Assembly: GCA_035651955.1 (NCBI GenBank)
Contig: DASRES010000091.1
Location: 1 to 52,941 of the forward strand
Direction of reading: 5' to 3'
From: Acidimicrobiia bacterium
GTDB taxonomy: Bacteria > Actinomycetota > Acidimicrobiia > IMCC26256 > JAMXLJ01
Length of the DNA: 52,941 nt
Position 1 is the stretch's first letter; each line of letters opens with the position of its first letter. Under the pieces are notes generated by a model that did not search any database, was not told where the DNA came from, and saw only the letters and a program-made list of their open reading frames with translations. Shown piece after piece: positions 25,962-47,065 of this stretch. The position numbers and the translations under genes are program-made.

Positions 25962-26537
25962 ATGCCGGACAAGCCCAGCTACCTCGGACTGCTGAACGCG
26001 ATCGCGATCGCGGAGTCGCACGCACACGCCTACCTGCGCGAGTGGGCGCAACGGACCCCGAGCGACGACGTGCGTCGCGTGCTGCTGCGCGTCGCGGCGC
26101 GCGAGGGCGAGCACGGGATGAGCTTCGCCAAGCGCATCAACGAGCTCGGCTTCGAGGTGCGCGAGAAGGACGACGGCACGTTCGACGACGCCATGGCCGT
26201 CGTCCGCTCCGACCGCTCCGACCTCGAGAAGATGAAGGCGCTGAAGCTGCACAAGCTCGACACCGGGTCGGAGCCCGACATCTTCGACGGCTTCTTCCGC
26301 GACCACACGATCGACATCCGGACGGGCGAGCTGCTCGGTCGTTACATCGCCGAGGAGCGCGACAGCGCCCGTCTCCTGCGGTCGTGCTACGAGCAGCTCA
26401 AGGCCGCGCGCGACGTCCGCGACGCTCCGGCGGACGCGCTCGCGTCCCTCGACGGGAAGGTCGACGCGCTCTGCCGTGCGGTCGAGGAGCTCCGGCAGAT
26501 CGTCTGCGCGCAGGCGATGCCGGCGAGCACCGCGTAA
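25962..26537 (+). CDS. ferritin-like/rubrerythrin-like protein
   Basis: 191 residues from ATG 25962 with GAGGAG at 25949-25954. Helices carry Glu/His pairs typical of di-iron ferritin-like folds: AIAESHAHAYLREWA, VAAREGEHGMSFAKRI, then GRYIAEERDSARLL. It may store or detoxify iron/peroxide or act as a non-haem oxygenase. It shares a promoter region with the divergent hydrolase and so perhaps the same repressor. A palindromic repeat begins 9 bases after its stop codon. Confidence 0.8.
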   Translation: MPDKPSYLGLLNAIAIAESHAHAYLREWAQRTPSDDVRRVLLRVAAREGEHGMSFAKRINELGFEVREKDDGTFDDAMAVVRSDRSDLEKMKALKLHKLDTGSEPDIFDGFFRDHTIDIRTGELLGRYIAEERDSARLLRSCYEQLKAARDVRDAPADALASLDGKVDALCRAVEELRQIVCAQAMPASTA

Positions 26538-26546
26538 CGCCCACGC

Positions 26547-26625
26547 CGCGGTCCCGCGGGACCGCGCGACGGTCGTTCTGATTCCCGGGAGTCCCGCCTG
26601 GCGAGACCCACGGGCATCTGAATCG
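26547..26625. repeat. palindromic interspersed repeat, copy 1
   Basis: Begins with the perfect 20-bp palindrome CGCGGTCCCGCGGGACCGCG (26547-26566), then a GATTC...GAATC outer arm pair around an inner GTCCCGCC-T-GGCGAGAC hairpin. The distance from the GGTCCC start (26550) to the end of GAATCG is 76 bp. This matches the copies at 39911 and 40025 (77 and 76 bp). It lies just downstream of a stop codon. Confidence 0.75.
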
Positions 26626-26736
26626 TCGCGTTCGCCACCTCCGCATTGCCCACACCCCGATGGGGCAGTGCCGCCCCTGGTTCCGTTCGGTGCGCGATGT
26701 CACCGTGCCGGAGGGAACCGAGCAAGGGGGCAGGGC

Positions 26737-27993
26737 ATGAGACGGCTCATCGTTCTCGTCGCGCTGTGCGCGCTGGCGCTGTCGGCGTGCAGCATCGACG
26801 ACTGGACCGCGTTCGGGTTCAACAACCGGAACACCTTCAACAACATCGGTGGGGTGTCACAGGACGCGATCAACACGTCGAACGCGTCGCAGCTGCAGCG
26901 CGCGTGGACGTCGAACGTCGTGCAGGGTGGCTACGGCTCCAGCGGTGTGGTCACGTGGACCGACACCAATCAGTACAAGAACCAGCACGCGTACTTCGAC
27001 AACAGCGGGATCCTCTGGTCCGTCAACACCGTCACGCACAAGGTCGACTGCGCGGCGAACGACGGCAGCGAGACGTCCGGCTCGAGCGCGAACGACCCGG
27101 TCGTGTCGGACGGCGGGCTCGGTTGGTACAACTCGCAGGCCGGCAACGAGTTCGAGCTCTACGACCTGCAGACGTGTGCCGAGCGTGGCGGAACCGACGT
27201 CGCGCAGTCCGACTCGGTCCATCCCACGCTGACGATGAACAACGACGGCTACATCTACGTCGGCACCGGTTACGACGAGGTGGACGGGACGGGCACGAGG
27301 CAGCTCTTCGGGTCCGTCACGAAGCAGCCGACCACCGCGGCGGCTCCCGGTTGGCAGACGTGGATGGCGACCCCCGTGTGGTCGCCGCCGGCGATCATGA
27401 ACGGGGTCGTGTACGCGACGACCTACGACACGCTGTACGCGATCCGCAACAGCGACGGCACGGTGCTGTGGCAGACGACGCTCGCGCCGGGTCACACGTC
27501 GCCGTTGCGTGCACCGATCGCGGTGCCGACCGTCAACGGCGCGGCGAACACGCCGACGATCTTCGTCACCAGCGAGTCGACGGTGTGGTCGGTGAACGCA
27601 TCGACCGGCGCGGTCCGCTGGGCGCACAGCAACAACGTGCTCCGCAACGCCGGCGCGACGATCGCCAACAACCAGCTGCTCGTCGCGGCGACGGGCGGCA
27701 CCGGCGCGCCGGTCCTCGTCTCGCTCGACGCGACGACCGGCGCGGCCGGCTACTCGAAGACGCTCGCGACGCCGTCAGGTGCGTCCCTCGACACGCTGTA
27801 CGAGCCCGCGACGACGAACGGTGTGCTGGTGATGGCGGACGGGACGGCGGCATGGGCGCTGCGGATCACGGACGGCGCCGTGCTGAAGAGCATGGTCGTC
27901 GCCGGCAACACGTCAGCCCACCCGACGATCTCCGAAGGCGACGTGTTCTTCCCGGTCGCGAACGGCATCGACGTGTGGGGCCTGCCCTCGTAG
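26737..27993 (+). CDS. PQQ-like beta-propeller lipoprotein
   Basis: 418 residues from ATG 26737, preceded by AAGGGGG. The N-terminus MRRLIVLVALCALALSAC has a lipobox (L-S-A-C, Cys18), so the protein is lipid-anchored outside the membrane. Repeats with the pattern of PQQ-binding-like propellers follow: VVYATTYDTLYAIRNSDGTV, TVWSVNASTGAVRWAHS, LVSLDATTGAAGY. The Trp docking motif suggests a non-catalytic propeller. Likely a binding or assembly protein; the partner is unknown. Confidence 0.85.
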   Translation: MRRLIVLVALCALALSACSIDDWTAFGFNNRNTFNNIGGVSQDAINTSNASQLQRAWTSNVVQGGYGSSGVVTWTDTNQYKNQHAYFDNSGILWSVNTVTHKVDCAANDGSETSGSSANDPVVSDGGLGWYNSQAGNEFELYDLQTCAERGGTDVAQSDSVHPTLTMNNDGYIYVGTGYDEVDGTGTRQLFGSVTKQPTTAAAPGWQTWMATPVWSPPAIMNGVVYATTYDTLYAIRNSDGTVLWQTTLAPGHTSPLRAPIAVPTVNGAANTPTIFVTSESTVWSVNASTGAVRWAHSNNVLRNAGATIANNQLLVAATGGTGAPVLVSLDATTGAAGYSKTLATPSGASLDTLYEPATTNGVLVMADGTAAWALRITDGAVLKSMVVAGNTSAHPTISEGDVFFPVANGIDVWGLPS

Positions 27994-30617: not shown

Positions 30618-30667
30618 CGCGTTGGTACACAAGTCGCGCCCATGACCGCGAGTTGTGTACCAACGCG
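30618..30667. terminator. 50-nt hairpin between convergent esterase and chemoreceptor genes
   Basis: The arms CGCGTTGGTACACAA (30618-30632) and its exact complement (30653-30667) form 15 bp. After a single G33-G52 mismatch, 5 more pairs TCGCG/CGCGA continue to an 8-base loop. It starts 11 bases after the esterase stop. Without a T tract it still fits a bidirectional terminator or 3' stabiliser. Confidence 0.6.
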
Positions 30668-39910: not shown

Positions 39911-39988
39911 CGGTCCCGCGGGACCGCCTGAACCGCGATTCAGATGACCGTCGATGCCCCGAGGCGGGATTCACCGTCATCTGAATGC
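39911..39988. repeat. palindromic interspersed repeat, copy 2
   Basis: The 16-bp palindrome CGGTCCCGCGGGACCG (39911-39926), then the arms ATTCAGATGAC and GTCATCTGAAT as a perfect 11-bp inverted repeat about 27 bases apart, with an inner CCCCG-a-GGCGGG. The GGTCCC-to-GAATGC distance is 77 bp. Confidence 0.8.
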
Positions 39989-40024: not shown

Positions 40025-40102
40025 GCGGTCCCGCGGGACCGCCGCGCCACGATTCATGTGCCATTCGGTCTCGCCTGGCGAGACCTCCGGGCACCTGAAT
40101 GC
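40025..40102. repeat. palindromic interspersed repeat, copy 3
   Basis: The 18-bp palindrome GCGGTCCCGCGGGACCGC (40025-40042), then GATTCATGTGCC pairing with GGGCACCTGAAT around the inner perfect hairpin GGTCTCGCC-T-GGCGAGACC. The GGTCCC-to-GAATGC distance is 76 bp. Confidence 0.8.
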
Positions 40103-42460: not shown

Positions 42461-45400
42461 TCACGCGAGGCGCAGCGCGAGCGTCACGATCTCGAACGGC
42501 GCGACGTCCAGCCGGACCCGTGAGCCGTCGACGGGGACGTCCTCGACCTCGCGCTCGAGGAGGTCGGTGGTCGTCGCCCGCGCCAGGGGTCGTGCGGCGT
42601 CGACGACGACCGGTCCCCGCCTTCCCCACGCGTCGTACAGCCGGACGACGAGCGCGTCGGGGTCGTCGTCGGCACGCTTGACCGCCTCCACCACGACGTT
42701 CGGCGCGTCGACCGTCACCAACGATCCCGTCGCCGGACGCCCGCCGTCGTGGACGCCCGTCCGCACCGCGCGCAGCGCCACGTTGAGGTCGTAGCCGGCG
42801 TCGATCACGCCCACGTCGCGGAGGTCGCCCGCGTGCGGGAGCAACCGGTACGTGAACGTGTGGTGACCCCGGTCGGCGACGGGGTCGGGCCATGTCGGCG
42901 CGCGCAGCAGCGACAAACGGATCACGTCGCCGTGCACGTCGTACCCGTACTTGCAGTCGTTGAGCAGCGCGACGCCGTACCCGGCCTCGGACAGGTCCGC
43001 CCACTTGTGCGCGCAGACCTCGAAGCGGGCGAGATCCCAGCTCGTGTTCTCGTGGGTCGGCCGCTCGACGTGCCCGTACTGGATCTCGTAGGTCGCCCGT
43101 GGGCTGCGCACGGCCACCGGGAACGCGACCTTGAGGAGACGGTTCGTCTCGTGCCAGTCGACCTCCGTCGCGAACTCGACGAAGGCCGACGACGCGGTGA
43201 GCGACACACGCTGCTCGATGCGCGAGCCACCGAAGGCGCGCACGATCCGGAGCGACGCGCGCACAGGCCCCTTCTCGACCACGTCGACGGACTCGACGTC
43301 GGTGAGGTCCTCCACGGTGTCGAACGCGAACCGGTCGACGTCCCACGCGTCGTAGAAGTTCGGGTAGTCCGGAAGGAGCTGGAACACGTTGGCCGGCCGG
43401 CCGGGAACCAGCACCTCGCGTCCAGCCGCCTTGTCGAACACCGACGTGAGGAGGCCACGCTCGTCGAGCTCGACGCGCAAGCGCGCGTTCTCCAGGCAGC
43501 CCGGCTCGGCGACGAGATCGACCGTGTCCGTCGTCCCGTCCCGTGCGACCAGGTCGTGGACCGCCCACCCGCACGGCGGCACGACCGCCTCGAACAGGAC
43601 GCGTCCGTCGCCGTCCCGCTGCACGGGCCGGAGCGCGCCCGACGCGTCGCGCACCGCGCCGATCTCGCCGGCGACGTCGTCGACCTCGACGACCTCGCGT
43701 CGCGCGTGTGACAGCGAGTTGCACACGACGACCGGCGCGGTCGTCGCCGACGTGTCGACGTCCGCGGCGAGCGCGTCGAGAGCGTCACCCGCGATCGCGT
43801 CCGCCGTCGCGCGCACCTCCTCGTGGGCAGCGTGCGTGTCCTCGTACACCCAGTGGATCCCGGAGCCCGGGATGATGTCGTGGAACTGGTGGAGCAGGAG
43901 CGTCTTCCACGCGGCGTCCAGCTCGCGCGCCGCGTACGCGCGTGCAGGCTGCACGAGCGCCGACCAGAGCTCGGCGTCACGCAGCGCGTACTCGCCTCGC
44001 CGGTTGCCGAGCTTCGTCCTCGCCTGGCTCGTGTACGTGCCCCGGTGCAGCTCCAGGTACAGCTCGCCGACCCAGACCGCGGGGTCGCGGACGTCCTCCT
44101 CGGCCGCGGTGAAGAACGCGCGCGGCCCCTCCATGGTGAGGTGCGGGAGGCCGTCGAGGTCGGCGAGGCGACGTGCGGACTCCAGCATCGTCGTGGTCGG
44201 ACCACCGCCGCCGTCGCCCCACCCGAAGAGGTACATCGAGCGCGTCGCGCGCGCATGGTCCTTGAAGTTCTGGACGCCGTAGCGCAGCTCGCGCACGCTC
44301 ACCTGCCCGCCGTACGTGTCCGACGGTGGGAAGTGCGTGAAGACGCGTGACCCGTCGATCCCCTCCCACAGGAACGTGTGGTGTGGGATGCGGTCGTACT
44401 GGTTCCACGACAGCTTCTGGGTCAGGAACCAGCGGACGCCCGCGCGCCGCATGATCTGCGGCATCGCGGCGGAGTAGCCGAACACGTCCGGCAGCCAGAC
44501 GTCCTCCGTCTCGATGCCCAGCTCGTCGCGGTAGAAGCGCTTGCCGTGGACGAGCTGGCGGACGAGCGACTCGCCCGACGGGATGTTGCAGTCCGCCTCG
44601 ACCCACATGCTGCCCGTCGGCTCGACCCGGTCGTCCGCGATCGCGTCCTTCAGACGCGACCACAGGTCCGGGTAGTGGTCGCGCATCCATGCGAGGTGCT
44701 GCGCCTGTGACACGACGAAGCGGTACTCCGGGTACTCGTCCATCAGCGCGAGCGCCGTGCTGAACGTGCGCGCGCACTTCCGGACCGTCTCGCGCAGCGG
44801 CCACAGCCATGCCGTGTCGAGATGCGCGTGACCGCAGATGCTGACCCGGTGCACGTCGGGCGCGGCCCGCATCGCGAGCAGCTCTCGCAGGATCGGTTGT
44901 GCGCGCTGGTACGTCCCGCGGACGTCGGGCAGCGCGATCGCGTCGCACGCGCGCGCGAGCCCCGCGCGTACGCGCTGCGCGCGCGGGTCGTCGCCCGGAA
45001 GCTCGCCGAGGAGCTCGAACAAGACGCGGAAGTCGTGCCAGAACGCGCTGAACGCCGCGTCGCGGACGTGGAGGTCGGCACGCTCGAGCGTGTACAGCGG
45101 CGCGCCGCCCGGGTCGGGCATGAGCAGGGGCCACGGGTTGAGGCCGAACGGGGACCGCGGGTTCGCGGCGGCCTCGACGTAGCGCTCGACCTGCTCACCA
45201 CCGCGTGCGGTGCGCGTGATCAGGTGCTCGCGGTGGTTCGGCGACAATCCCTGCACGGGGGCGCCGCCGTCCCACACGAGGGCCTCGGCGCCGAACCCGG
45301 TGTCGCCCGCGTTGCCGATCGCGAAGCCGAGCGCGACCTCGCGCCCCGCCCATTCGTCGGGGATCGTGCCGCGCAATCGGAACCACGTCGTGTCCCACGC

Positions 45401-45592
45401 CGCGCCCCACGCGCCGCCGACCGGGAACGGCTCGTAGTCCGCGCGGAGCGCGGCGTCGATGCCGATCGGCTCGCCGTGGACGTGGTGGGCGGCGACGTCG
45501 AGAGCGACCGACTCGTTGCGCAGGGCGGGCCGCACGAACTCGAAGAGCACACGTGCGATCCGCCCGTCGGTGACCGCGTCCTCCTCGCGCAC
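42461..45592 (-). CDS. alpha-mannosidase-like glycoside hydrolase (GH38)
   Basis: 1043 residues from GTG 45592, the only candidate start downstream of the palindrome; the frame further upstream is antisense to the next gene. GH38 pattern: GHAHLDTAWLWPLRET (zinc ligands His-x-Asp), WVEADCNIPSGE (nucleophile Asp), LPDVFGYSAAMPQIMRRAG, SWNQYDRIPHHTFLWEG and HQFHDIIPGSGIHW. The C-terminal half is the beta-sandwich of the family. No signal peptide is seen, so it likely trims mannose-containing glycans in the cytosol. Confidence 0.95.
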   Translation of the reverse strand: MREEDAVTDGRIARVLFEFVRPALRNESVALDVAAHHVHGEPIGIDAALRADYEPFPVGGAWGAAWDTTWFRLRGTIPDEWAGREVALGFAIGNAGDTGFGAEALVWDGGAPVQGLSPNHREHLITRTARGGEQVERYVEAAANPRSPFGLNPWPLLMPDPGGAPLYTLERADLHVRDAAFSAFWHDFRVLFELLGELPGDDPRAQRVRAGLARACDAIALPDVRGTYQRAQPILRELLAMRAAPDVHRVSICGHAHLDTAWLWPLRETVRKCARTFSTALALMDEYPEYRFVVSQAQHLAWMRDHYPDLWSRLKDAIADDRVEPTGSMWVEADCNIPSGESLVRQLVHGKRFYRDELGIETEDVWLPDVFGYSAAMPQIMRRAGVRWFLTQKLSWNQYDRIPHHTFLWEGIDGSRVFTHFPPSDTYGGQVSVRELRYGVQNFKDHARATRSMYLFGWGDGGGGPTTTMLESARRLADLDGLPHLTMEGPRAFFTAAEEDVRDPAVWVGELYLELHRGTYTSQARTKLGNRRGEYALRDAELWSALVQPARAYAARELDAAWKTLLLHQFHDIIPGSGIHWVYEDTHAAHEEVRATADAIAGDALDALAADVDTSATTAPVVVCNSLSHARREVVEVDDVAGEIGAVRDASGALRPVQRDGDGRVLFEAVVPPCGWAVHDLVARDGTTDTVDLVAEPGCLENARLRVELDERGLLTSVFDKAAGREVLVPGRPANVFQLLPDYPNFYDAWDVDRFAFDTVEDLTDVESVDVVEKGPVRASLRIVRAFGGSRIEQRVSLTASSAFVEFATEVDWHETNRLLKVAFPVAVRSPRATYEIQYGHVERPTHENTSWDLARFEVCAHKWADLSEAGYGVALLNDCKYGYDVHGDVIRLSLLRAPTWPDPVADRGHHTFTYRLLPHAGDLRDVGVIDAGYDLNVALRAVRTGVHDGGRPATGSLVTVDAPNVVVEAVKRADDDPDALVVRLYDAWGRRGPVVVDAARPLARATTTDLLEREVEDVPVDGSRVRLDVAPFEIVTLALRLA

Positions 45593-45613: not shown

Positions 45614-45666
45614 CCGAAGATGCGGCACTGACGTACGGATTCCGTACGTGAGTGCCGCATCTTCGG
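45614..45666. promoter_or_regulatory. 53-nt near-perfect palindrome in a divergent spacer
   Basis: Arms 45614-45639 and 45641-45666 pair over 26 positions (CCGAAGATGCGGCACT, then a G-G mismatch, then ACGTACGGA) around a single central T. It lies 21 bases upstream of the mannosidase start and 46 bases upstream of the binding-protein ATG. It could be an operator or a cruciform/hairpin element. Confidence 0.75.
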
Positions 45667-45712: not shown

Positions 45713-47065
45713 ATGGCGTTGCGACGCTGGTGCGTGCCGTTCGTGGTCGTCGCGTTGACGGCGGTCGGGTGCAGCCGCTCCAGCAGCACGACGTCGTCGT
45801 CGACGTCGACGACCAGCGCGGGCACCTCGGCCGGCGGTACGGGCGCGGGCGACTTCGGCACGTTGAAGGCGGTGTGCGGACCGGGGAACGCGACCGGAGC
45901 GACCGACCAGGGCGTCACGGATCACGACATCACGGTCGGCACGATGGCCGACCCCGGCGCGGCGGCGCAGCCCGGGCTCGACCAGGAGATCTTCGACGCG
46001 GCCGAGGCGTTCGTCGACTGGTGCAACGCGGCGGGCGGGATCCTCGGCCGCAAGCTCGTCGTGCACAAGTGGGACTCGAAGCTGACCGAGGTCGCGCCCC
46101 GGATGATCCAGGCCTGCCAGGCCGACTTCATGCTCGTCGGCAACGGCGAGGCGCTCGACGCGACGGGCGTCGAGCAGCGCACCAAGTGCAAGCTTCCCGA
46201 GATCCCCACGTACGACGTGTCGGTGCAGGCGAGCACCGCGGCGCTGTCGGTCGAGCCGCTGCCGAACACCGACTACGCGAGCGGTCTGTACGCGGCGTAC
46301 CGGCACATCGCACAGGCTGACCCGGCGGCCGCGAAGCACTACGCGATGCTCGCCAACCAGCTGCAGTCCATCAAGGACGCCGCGGTGAAGGACCGGGCCG
46401 GCGCCGAGGCCGCCGGGTTCACGACCGTGTACTACGACGAGCTGCCGCTGCTCGTCGACAACTGGCGCCCGTACGCGGAGAACATCAAGGACAAGGGCGT
46501 CCAGGTGTTCACGATGGAGAACAGCGTGCAGGGCACGGCCGCGCTGTTCAAGGCGTTGACGGAGCTCGCCTACAAGCCCAAGTACGCGCTCTTCAACCCG
46601 AACCTCTACGACCCGACGTTCCTCCAGAACGCGGGCGACGCGCTCAACGGTACGACGGTGCTCATCAACACGGGCTTCGTGCCGTTCGAGCTCGCGAGCA
46701 CGCATCCGGCGACGAAGCAGTACATGGACCTCGTCGCCCAGTACGCGCACGCGAAGCCCAAGGCGCTCGGCGCGCAGGCGTGGTCGGCCTGGCTGCTGTT
46801 CGCGGAGTCGGCCAAGGCGTGCGGCTCGAACCTCACGCGGGCCTGCGTGCTCGACCACGCGAAGTCCGTGCCCGAGTGGACGGGCGGCGGGTTGCACGCG
46901 CCGTCGCACCCCGGCGACGCGACCGGCCGGCCGAGTGAGTGCTTCCTGCTCGTGCAGGCGACGCCGAGCGGGTTCACGGTCGACACGAAGCTGACGCAGC
47001 CGAACAACGGGCCGTTCAACTGCTCGCCCGACAACGTCAAGCGTCTACCGGGCTTCCCGAAGTGA
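45713..47065 (+). CDS. branched-chain-type substrate-binding lipoprotein (orphan)
   Basis: 450 residues from ATG 45713 with GGGGGGAG upstream. The N-terminus MALRRWCVPFVVVALTAVGC has a lipobox-like Cys20, then a Ser/Thr linker (SSSTTSSSTSTTSAG). The rest resembles periplasmic binding protein type 6: VGTMADPGAAAQPGLDQE, CNAAGGILGRKLVVHKWD, ADFMLVGNGEALDATGV. No ABC permease or ATPase of the branched-chain type is nearby. It may be a stand-alone receptor or use remote transport genes. Its stop overlaps the P450 GTG by 4 bases. Confidence 0.9.
   Translation: MALRRWCVPFVVVALTAVGCSRSSSTTSSSTSTTSAGTSAGGTGAGDFGTLKAVCGPGNATGATDQGVTDHDITVGTMADPGAAAQPGLDQEIFDAAEAFVDWCNAAGGILGRKLVVHKWDSKLTEVAPRMIQACQADFMLVGNGEALDATGVEQRTKCKLPEIPTYDVSVQASTAALSVEPLPNTDYASGLYAAYRHIAQADPAAAKHYAMLANQLQSIKDAAVKDRAGAEAAGFTTVYYDELPLLVDNWRPYAENIKDKGVQVFTMENSVQGTAALFKALTELAYKPKYALFNPNLYDPTFLQNAGDALNGTTVLINTGFVPFELASTHPATKQYMDLVAQYAHAKPKALGAQAWSAWLLFAESAKACGSNLTRACVLDHAKSVPEWTGGGLHAPSHPGDATGRPSECFLLVQATPSGFTVDTKLTQPNNGPFNCSPDNVKRLPGFPK

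Follow-up and report, generated by a model that had tools for sequence, protein, structure and literature searches.

The window, as we call the whole stretch of 52,941 nucleotides that was analysed (contig DASRES010000091.1 of an Acidimicrobiia bacterium), carries two divergently transcribed genes, one for a GH38 alpha-mannosidase (42461-45592, minus strand) and one for a periplasmic binding protein (Peripla_BP_6; 45713-47065, plus strand). Between them lies a palindrome at 45614-45666, recovered by an inverted-repeat search, in which two arms of 26 nt (45614-45639 and 45641-45666) are 96% complementary around a single central T. The one exception to pairing is a G-G mismatch at arm position 17 (position 11 of the core described below); the other 25 of 26 positions pair. 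As RNA, the 53-mer folds at -46.9 kcal/mol, which 0 of 200 shuffled sequences equal (z = -12.27), and other, longer inverted repeats with short loops in the window pair at just 70-79%. A preliminary description of this DNA had reported a near-perfect 53-nt palindrome in a divergent spacer with the potential to form a strong hairpin or cruciform, and on all of these points our analysis agrees: the arms are exceptional. The called start of the mannosidase gene is 21 nt from the palindrome and 27 nt from its core and that of the binding-protein gene 46 nt and 52 nt, distances that are approximate because gene calls come from a custom codon-usage script; by eye, the mannosidase GTG start is also in frame in the corresponding sequence of a sister species (G001). 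A promoter scan around the palindrome and a terminator scan at it each found none, and an Rfam search with the hairpin returned no match above the gathering score. An identity as an Rfam miRNA or sRNA was rejected, as the matches to the hairpin shape were all below threshold.

We next consider other copies of the palindrome, a check that the preliminary description had proposed. Using the window spacer as a query against the bacterium's own genome (4,105,615 bases in 92 contigs, a draft that is 96% complete), we find dozens of matches. The shared plan, ATGCGGCACT-N21-AGTGCCGCAT, occurs at 44 genomic sites with up to three arm mismatches, compared with 1 site for a reversed-pattern control. Perfect arms are found at 40 of these sites and one change at four, with none carrying two or three changes; a 45th copy (L034) has four arm changes, arranged as two pairs that still match. 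Four of 49 arm matches with fewer than five of ten inner pairs were removed before every count, so a badly decayed copy may be missed. All 45 copies are exactly 41 bp long with zero length variation, and the core that they have in common occupies 45620-45660 in the window. The half-sites are offset by 31 in 41 cases and never by 25-30 or 32-39. Exact half-sites number 90 genome-wide (reversed control, 8), and 84 of them are inside element copies; half-sites alone, in a single-word over-representation test of the kind used for uptake sequences, are not enriched in the genome. Apart from a tandem pair spaced by 56 bp (L032) and a pair spaced by 1 kb (L015), the copies are single, and the 45 do not form clustered or paired units in the style of BIMEs or REPINs. 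The palindrome is thus not a one-off, and the suggestion that it is a local multi-site operator is not supported, as the same plan occurs 45 times, mostly right after stop codons, well beyond these two genes.

Alignment of the 45 copies, with pair counts and position-wise changes, divides the core into invariant outer arms (45620-45629 and 45651-45660 in the window) and a variable, paired inner stem that contains an invariant CG (45636-45637 and 45643-45644). Relative to the consensus, 8 of 900 cells are changed in the outer 20 positions, 1 of 90 at A12/T30 and 0 of 180 in the CG pairs, compared with 115 of 360 at inner positions 13-16/26-29. Both sides of the alignment pairs 17-37, 19-35, 20-34, 21-33 and 22-32 are changed in 11, 6, 9, 13 and 9 sequences, respectively. 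The covariation score is 0.184. Shuffles score 0.103 +/- 0.010, with none of 500 reaching the observed value, and sliding the pairing gives 0.071 at best. This covariation does not amount to proof of an RNA role, as kinship of the copies may inflate the score and template switching may keep palindromes perfect. Identical inner arms are found in 14 of the 45 copies, and some copies, for example L033, join half-stems otherwise found in separate copies. The median fold is -39.6 kcal/mol versus -20.2 for 300 other 53-mers from spacers, a background biased by its origin in loci chosen for holding copies and still including spacers with copies. The stem has the G+C-rich hairpin of a canonical intrinsic terminator, but its U-tract is missing: five T in eight bases follow the stem in 1 of 90 flanks, and T is common just at the second and third base past the arm (84 and 57 of 90). 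Flank conservation is weak and symmetric, and the alignment contains no conserved flank with an unpaired GTAG or CGTC end tag. The combination of frozen outer arms with a free, covarying inner stem at fixed length suggests a specific reader, though recent spread from several master copies could also explain it.

The position of the copies relative to genes is highly skewed. As in REPs, which are short palindromes in many, mostly extragenic copies, 44 of 45 copies fall outside called ORFs. The neighbouring genes are convergent around 18 copies, tandem around 22 and divergent around four, with one copy inside an ORF; 40 of 45 are therefore between convergent or same-direction genes, beside gene 3' ends, which is again where REPs are found. 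A stop codon is within 15 nt of 36 of the 45 copies, and six of these hold the stop inside the element, as ATG CGG CAC TGA. When 44 copies were placed at random, the mean number this close to a stop was 7.8 (maximum 17) with spacers weighted by length and 19.8 (maximum 31) with spacers weighted equally. The corresponding values for convergent spacers are 7.5 (maximum 16) and 7.9 (maximum 19), and for divergent spacers 17.0 (minimum 6) and 13.0 (minimum 4). Taken alone, the convergent excess departs less from random placement than the closeness to stops does. The window copy, together with those in L008, L025 and L060, belongs to the divergent class, the rarest intergenic one. L008, L025, L060 and L013 contain no tRNA gene and the window just one (515-590), so no RNA gene accounts for the divergent copies. 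The preliminary description had argued that a palindrome in a divergent spacer should not be a terminator; this stands for the window copy but not for its family, which is found where terminators sit. The single copy inside a gene (L013:4041-4081) follows the reading frame of a radical-SAM/DUF512 gene and falls in a linker whose length varies. A clean in-frame insertion at this site was considered and rejected, as linker length varies among the eight aligned sequences (G018, with split matches only, was excluded), which indicates tolerance and not precise insertion.

Several copies carry marks of their spread. An unusual unpaired centre, GGAAGGC, is common to three unlinked copies, which argues for copying. 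A gene with MTES_1575/DUF559 matches lies between two copies that both carry GGATTGC (L015:3980-5021), and this segment of about 1 kb is missing in the sister species, which has about 10 bp between two stops. In another case a gene ends (..PAKMRH*) within the element and the sister gene has a different end. A search for the Y1 transposase (RAYT, PF01797) found none in any of four genomes (own, as a 96% complete draft, G001, G018 and G041) at E <= 1, while controls matched. No target-site duplication of 4-9 nt, as expected for MITEs, was found above shuffled pairs at offsets of 0-12.

The sister species G001 has the same mannosidase/binding-protein gene pair (77% DNA identity) without the palindrome sequence of the window. 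At the sister site of L028 the sequence is 47 bp shorter and the element is missing, and it is missing as well from the sister sequences at L016, L061, L022, L021 and L025. G001 has a palindrome family of its own, GTTGGGACGATTTT...AAATCGTCCCAAC, with 15 matches in 1.39 Mb, of which we consider 11 plausible; the other four, which fell within called ORFs or lay at an edge distant from any gene end, were set aside by eye. Ten of the 11 plausible members are 8-25 nt from a stop and the eleventh is in the mannosidase/binding-protein spacer (L120:1581-1622), where it is the sole divergent member. Lack of arm pairing in relatives with the same genes, along with no effect on transcript ends, had been named as refuting the preliminary reading. 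The outcome is mixed: G001 does lack the window sequence, yet its spacer has a palindrome of another family. Between matched flanks the two spacers are 150 and 155 bases long; with lengths this similar, the palindrome was not simply inserted into a spacer that is alike in other respects. By a rough estimate (about 11 members per 1.39 Mb) a chance palindrome at one given G001 spacer is unlikely, at about 1%, though this is a single case. At the L043 oxidase gene, our genome has its element 11 nt after the stop and the sister a decayed GTTGGAACGATTCTTCCCG... palindrome, also 11 nt after. A strong hairpin (score of at least 12) was found at 1 of 15 orthologous 3' ends in G001 versus 1 of 50 control ends, in the 1.39 Mb covered out of 4.4 Mb; this scoring missed the decayed L043 palindrome. 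Conservation of hairpins at orthologous 3' ends is therefore rejected, and a hairpin is not needed at these ends in the sister. Slots are usually not common to the two species, but the mannosidase spacer and perhaps a second slot, L043, hold a palindrome of either family.

A few other Acidimicrobiia have the same plan with different arms. The strict 41-bp unit is absent from 60 relatives, including one of the same genus, and a covariance model matches six of 296 genomes of the class, our own among them. G018 has the unit ATGCGTCCCTGA-x-CGCATAGCG-x-TCAGGGACGCAT and G041 the unit TGGCGTCACTTACCCACG-N5-CGTGGGTAAGTGACGCCA, both 41 bp by eye, and the sites that we read in G018 (6 of 6) and G041 (5 of 5) overlap a stop codon or come within about 23 nt after one. 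A degenerate pattern run against a genome collection that may omit our own genome gave 13 stretches: six from Acidimicrobiia MAG FR_2, five from Acidimicrobiia MAG Chersky_806, one from Micromonospora parastrephiae and one from an uncultured bacterium. The viral contigs searched for the 41-bp pattern gave 0 matches.

We also observed further palindromes of other types. A second family of our own genome, GTTGGTACACAAGTCGCG...CGCGACTTGTGTACCAAC, is present in the window at 30618-30667, between convergent genes and 11 nt after a stop, with four further copies in L009, L024, L037 and L041. One convergent spacer of the window contains two imperfect palindromes with ATTCA..TGAAT ends (39938-39986 and 40052-40100), beside which an 18-bp palindromic word, CGGTCCCGCGGGACCGCC, occurs in two exact copies (39911 and 40026); a palindrome similar to the ATTCA..TGAAT type is near 26522-26751. 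A further hairpin family with arms like TTCTGTGAAGCGT...GCTTCACAGAA occupies tandem spacers (L027:6335-6450, L025:4810-4972 and L062:2112-2207). In G001, TGGCGTCACTT palindromes at L172:2683-2735 resemble the ones in G041, a genome from a different taxonomic family, and are likewise at gene ends.

Based on these data, we propose that the window palindrome is probably a copy of a REP-like, dispersed element of fixed length (41 bp) whose hairpin serves the 3' ends of mRNAs from either strand, in termination or end protection. In this model the copies would spread by duplication, through a sequence-specific process that reads the outer arms, and would stay at gene 3' ends because a symmetric hairpin is harmless or useful in either direction of transcription. 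The hairpin may end or pause transcription of either of two convergent genes, or cap the mRNA 3' end against exonucleases, a role that we infer from placement and covariation in the sequence. The window copy is an exception in its own family. Our best guess is that here, between two divergent starts, the hairpin, if active, would insulate the two genes from read-through or antisense transcripts; an operator role specific to a regulator is not needed. Several observations count against this proposal, namely the missing U-tract, the sister 3' ends that are mostly free of hairpins, the missing target-site duplication, the failure to find a RAYT gene and the membership of the window copy in the rarest class.

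The most serious competitor, to which we give a minority chance, is a purely selfish palindromic element whose spreading copies are tolerated just at places where they do little harm, behind stops, with no host role in the window or elsewhere. It fits the lineage-specific distribution, the orthologous gene ends that mostly have neither element nor substitute, the in-frame copy in a variable protein linker and the genes that end within the element. However, copies are nearer to stops than harmlessness in spacers predicts under both weightings, and the outer arms are undecayed while inner positions vary, with no copy at two or three arm changes. We think it rather unlikely, though conceivable, that an undescribed system of Acidimicrobiia, not of the RAYT type, both acts on the 41-bp palindromes and gives rise to them by copying or recombination. 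It would read the outer arms and CG pairs, mix inner half-stems and repeatedly put unrelated families into the same slots, sometimes leaving a gene between two copies; one such slot would be the spacer between the mannosidase and binding-protein genes in the two sister species. Improbable to a further degree is a binding site for a sequence-specific DNA protein of the nucleoid, partition or recombination type, with the duplex read and the hairpin incidental. Invariant half-sites 31 bp apart, or about three helical turns, with arms frozen at this spacing, would suit such a site, as would the retention of the 41-bp plan with different arms in other genomes and the joining of half-stems from different copies; yet the inner stem covaries, which a duplex site does not need, almost all copies are at gene 3' ends, and a candidate reader, sought as Y1 only, was not found. 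Finally, we consider it very improbable that a locus-specific operator or cruciform controlling the two genes is kept by selection in the spacer, as the G001 spacer does have the sole divergent palindrome of the 11 plausible members, but the window sequence is a genome-wide repeat and the G001 palindrome is unrelated to it, leaving no common operator sequence.

What seemed a one-off operator is a genome-wide element, and, should its hairpins end transcripts, Acidimicrobiia would have a recognisable marker of gene ends. Since species differ in their arms yet keep the 41-bp plan and its position at gene 3' ends, turnover of REP-like families can be traced between sister genomes.

Within the papers searched, we found no report of palindromic intergenic repeats in Acidimicrobiia, and for REP elements in Actinobacteria the search led just to a Bradyrhizobium study. 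Among known systems, the inverted uptake sequences that serve as terminators (Neisseria DUS and Haemophilus USS) are repeated words paired as 3'-end hairpins. Such words are far more numerous than 45 and also occur singly, whereas the half-sites of our element are almost always paired. MITEs are short, non-autonomous inverted-repeat elements; unlike them, our element has neither target-site duplication nor internal region, and no parent transposon was seen. Hairpins without a U-tract close after stops are described in M. tuberculosis, Streptomyces and other high-GC bacteria (PMC8355165). Like them, our element is a strong hairpin less than 20 nt from stops without a T run; the hairpins described there have no conserved sequence, whereas our arms are nearly invariant over 45 sites. 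Group 3 of the REPtron/TnpA-REP (RAYT) system has perfect palindromes as non-autonomous repeats, as here (PMC8266576), but no Y1 gene was found in our genome (or in G001, G018 and G041) and the element has no GTAG guide motif. REPs (PMC3733652) are dispersed palindromes mostly between convergent and same-direction genes, less than 20 bp from 3' ends, with some inside ORFs; they can supply stop codons to adjoining genes, and CGTC REPs have no known transposase. Our element differs from GTAG/CGTC REPs in lacking a terminal unpaired tetranucleotide tag, in its 45 almost entirely single copies with no RAYT found, and in being longer and fully symmetric (41-53 bp versus 20-40 bp), and resembles them in its dispersed palindromes, 3'-end placement, supply of stops and lineage-specific spread (PMC3733652). 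With no GTAG/CGTC tag, no RAYT gene found and no U-tract, the element does not qualify as a classical REP or as a canonical terminator; since its placement and lineage-specific spread fit REPs and its tag, length and symmetry do not, we describe it as REP-like.
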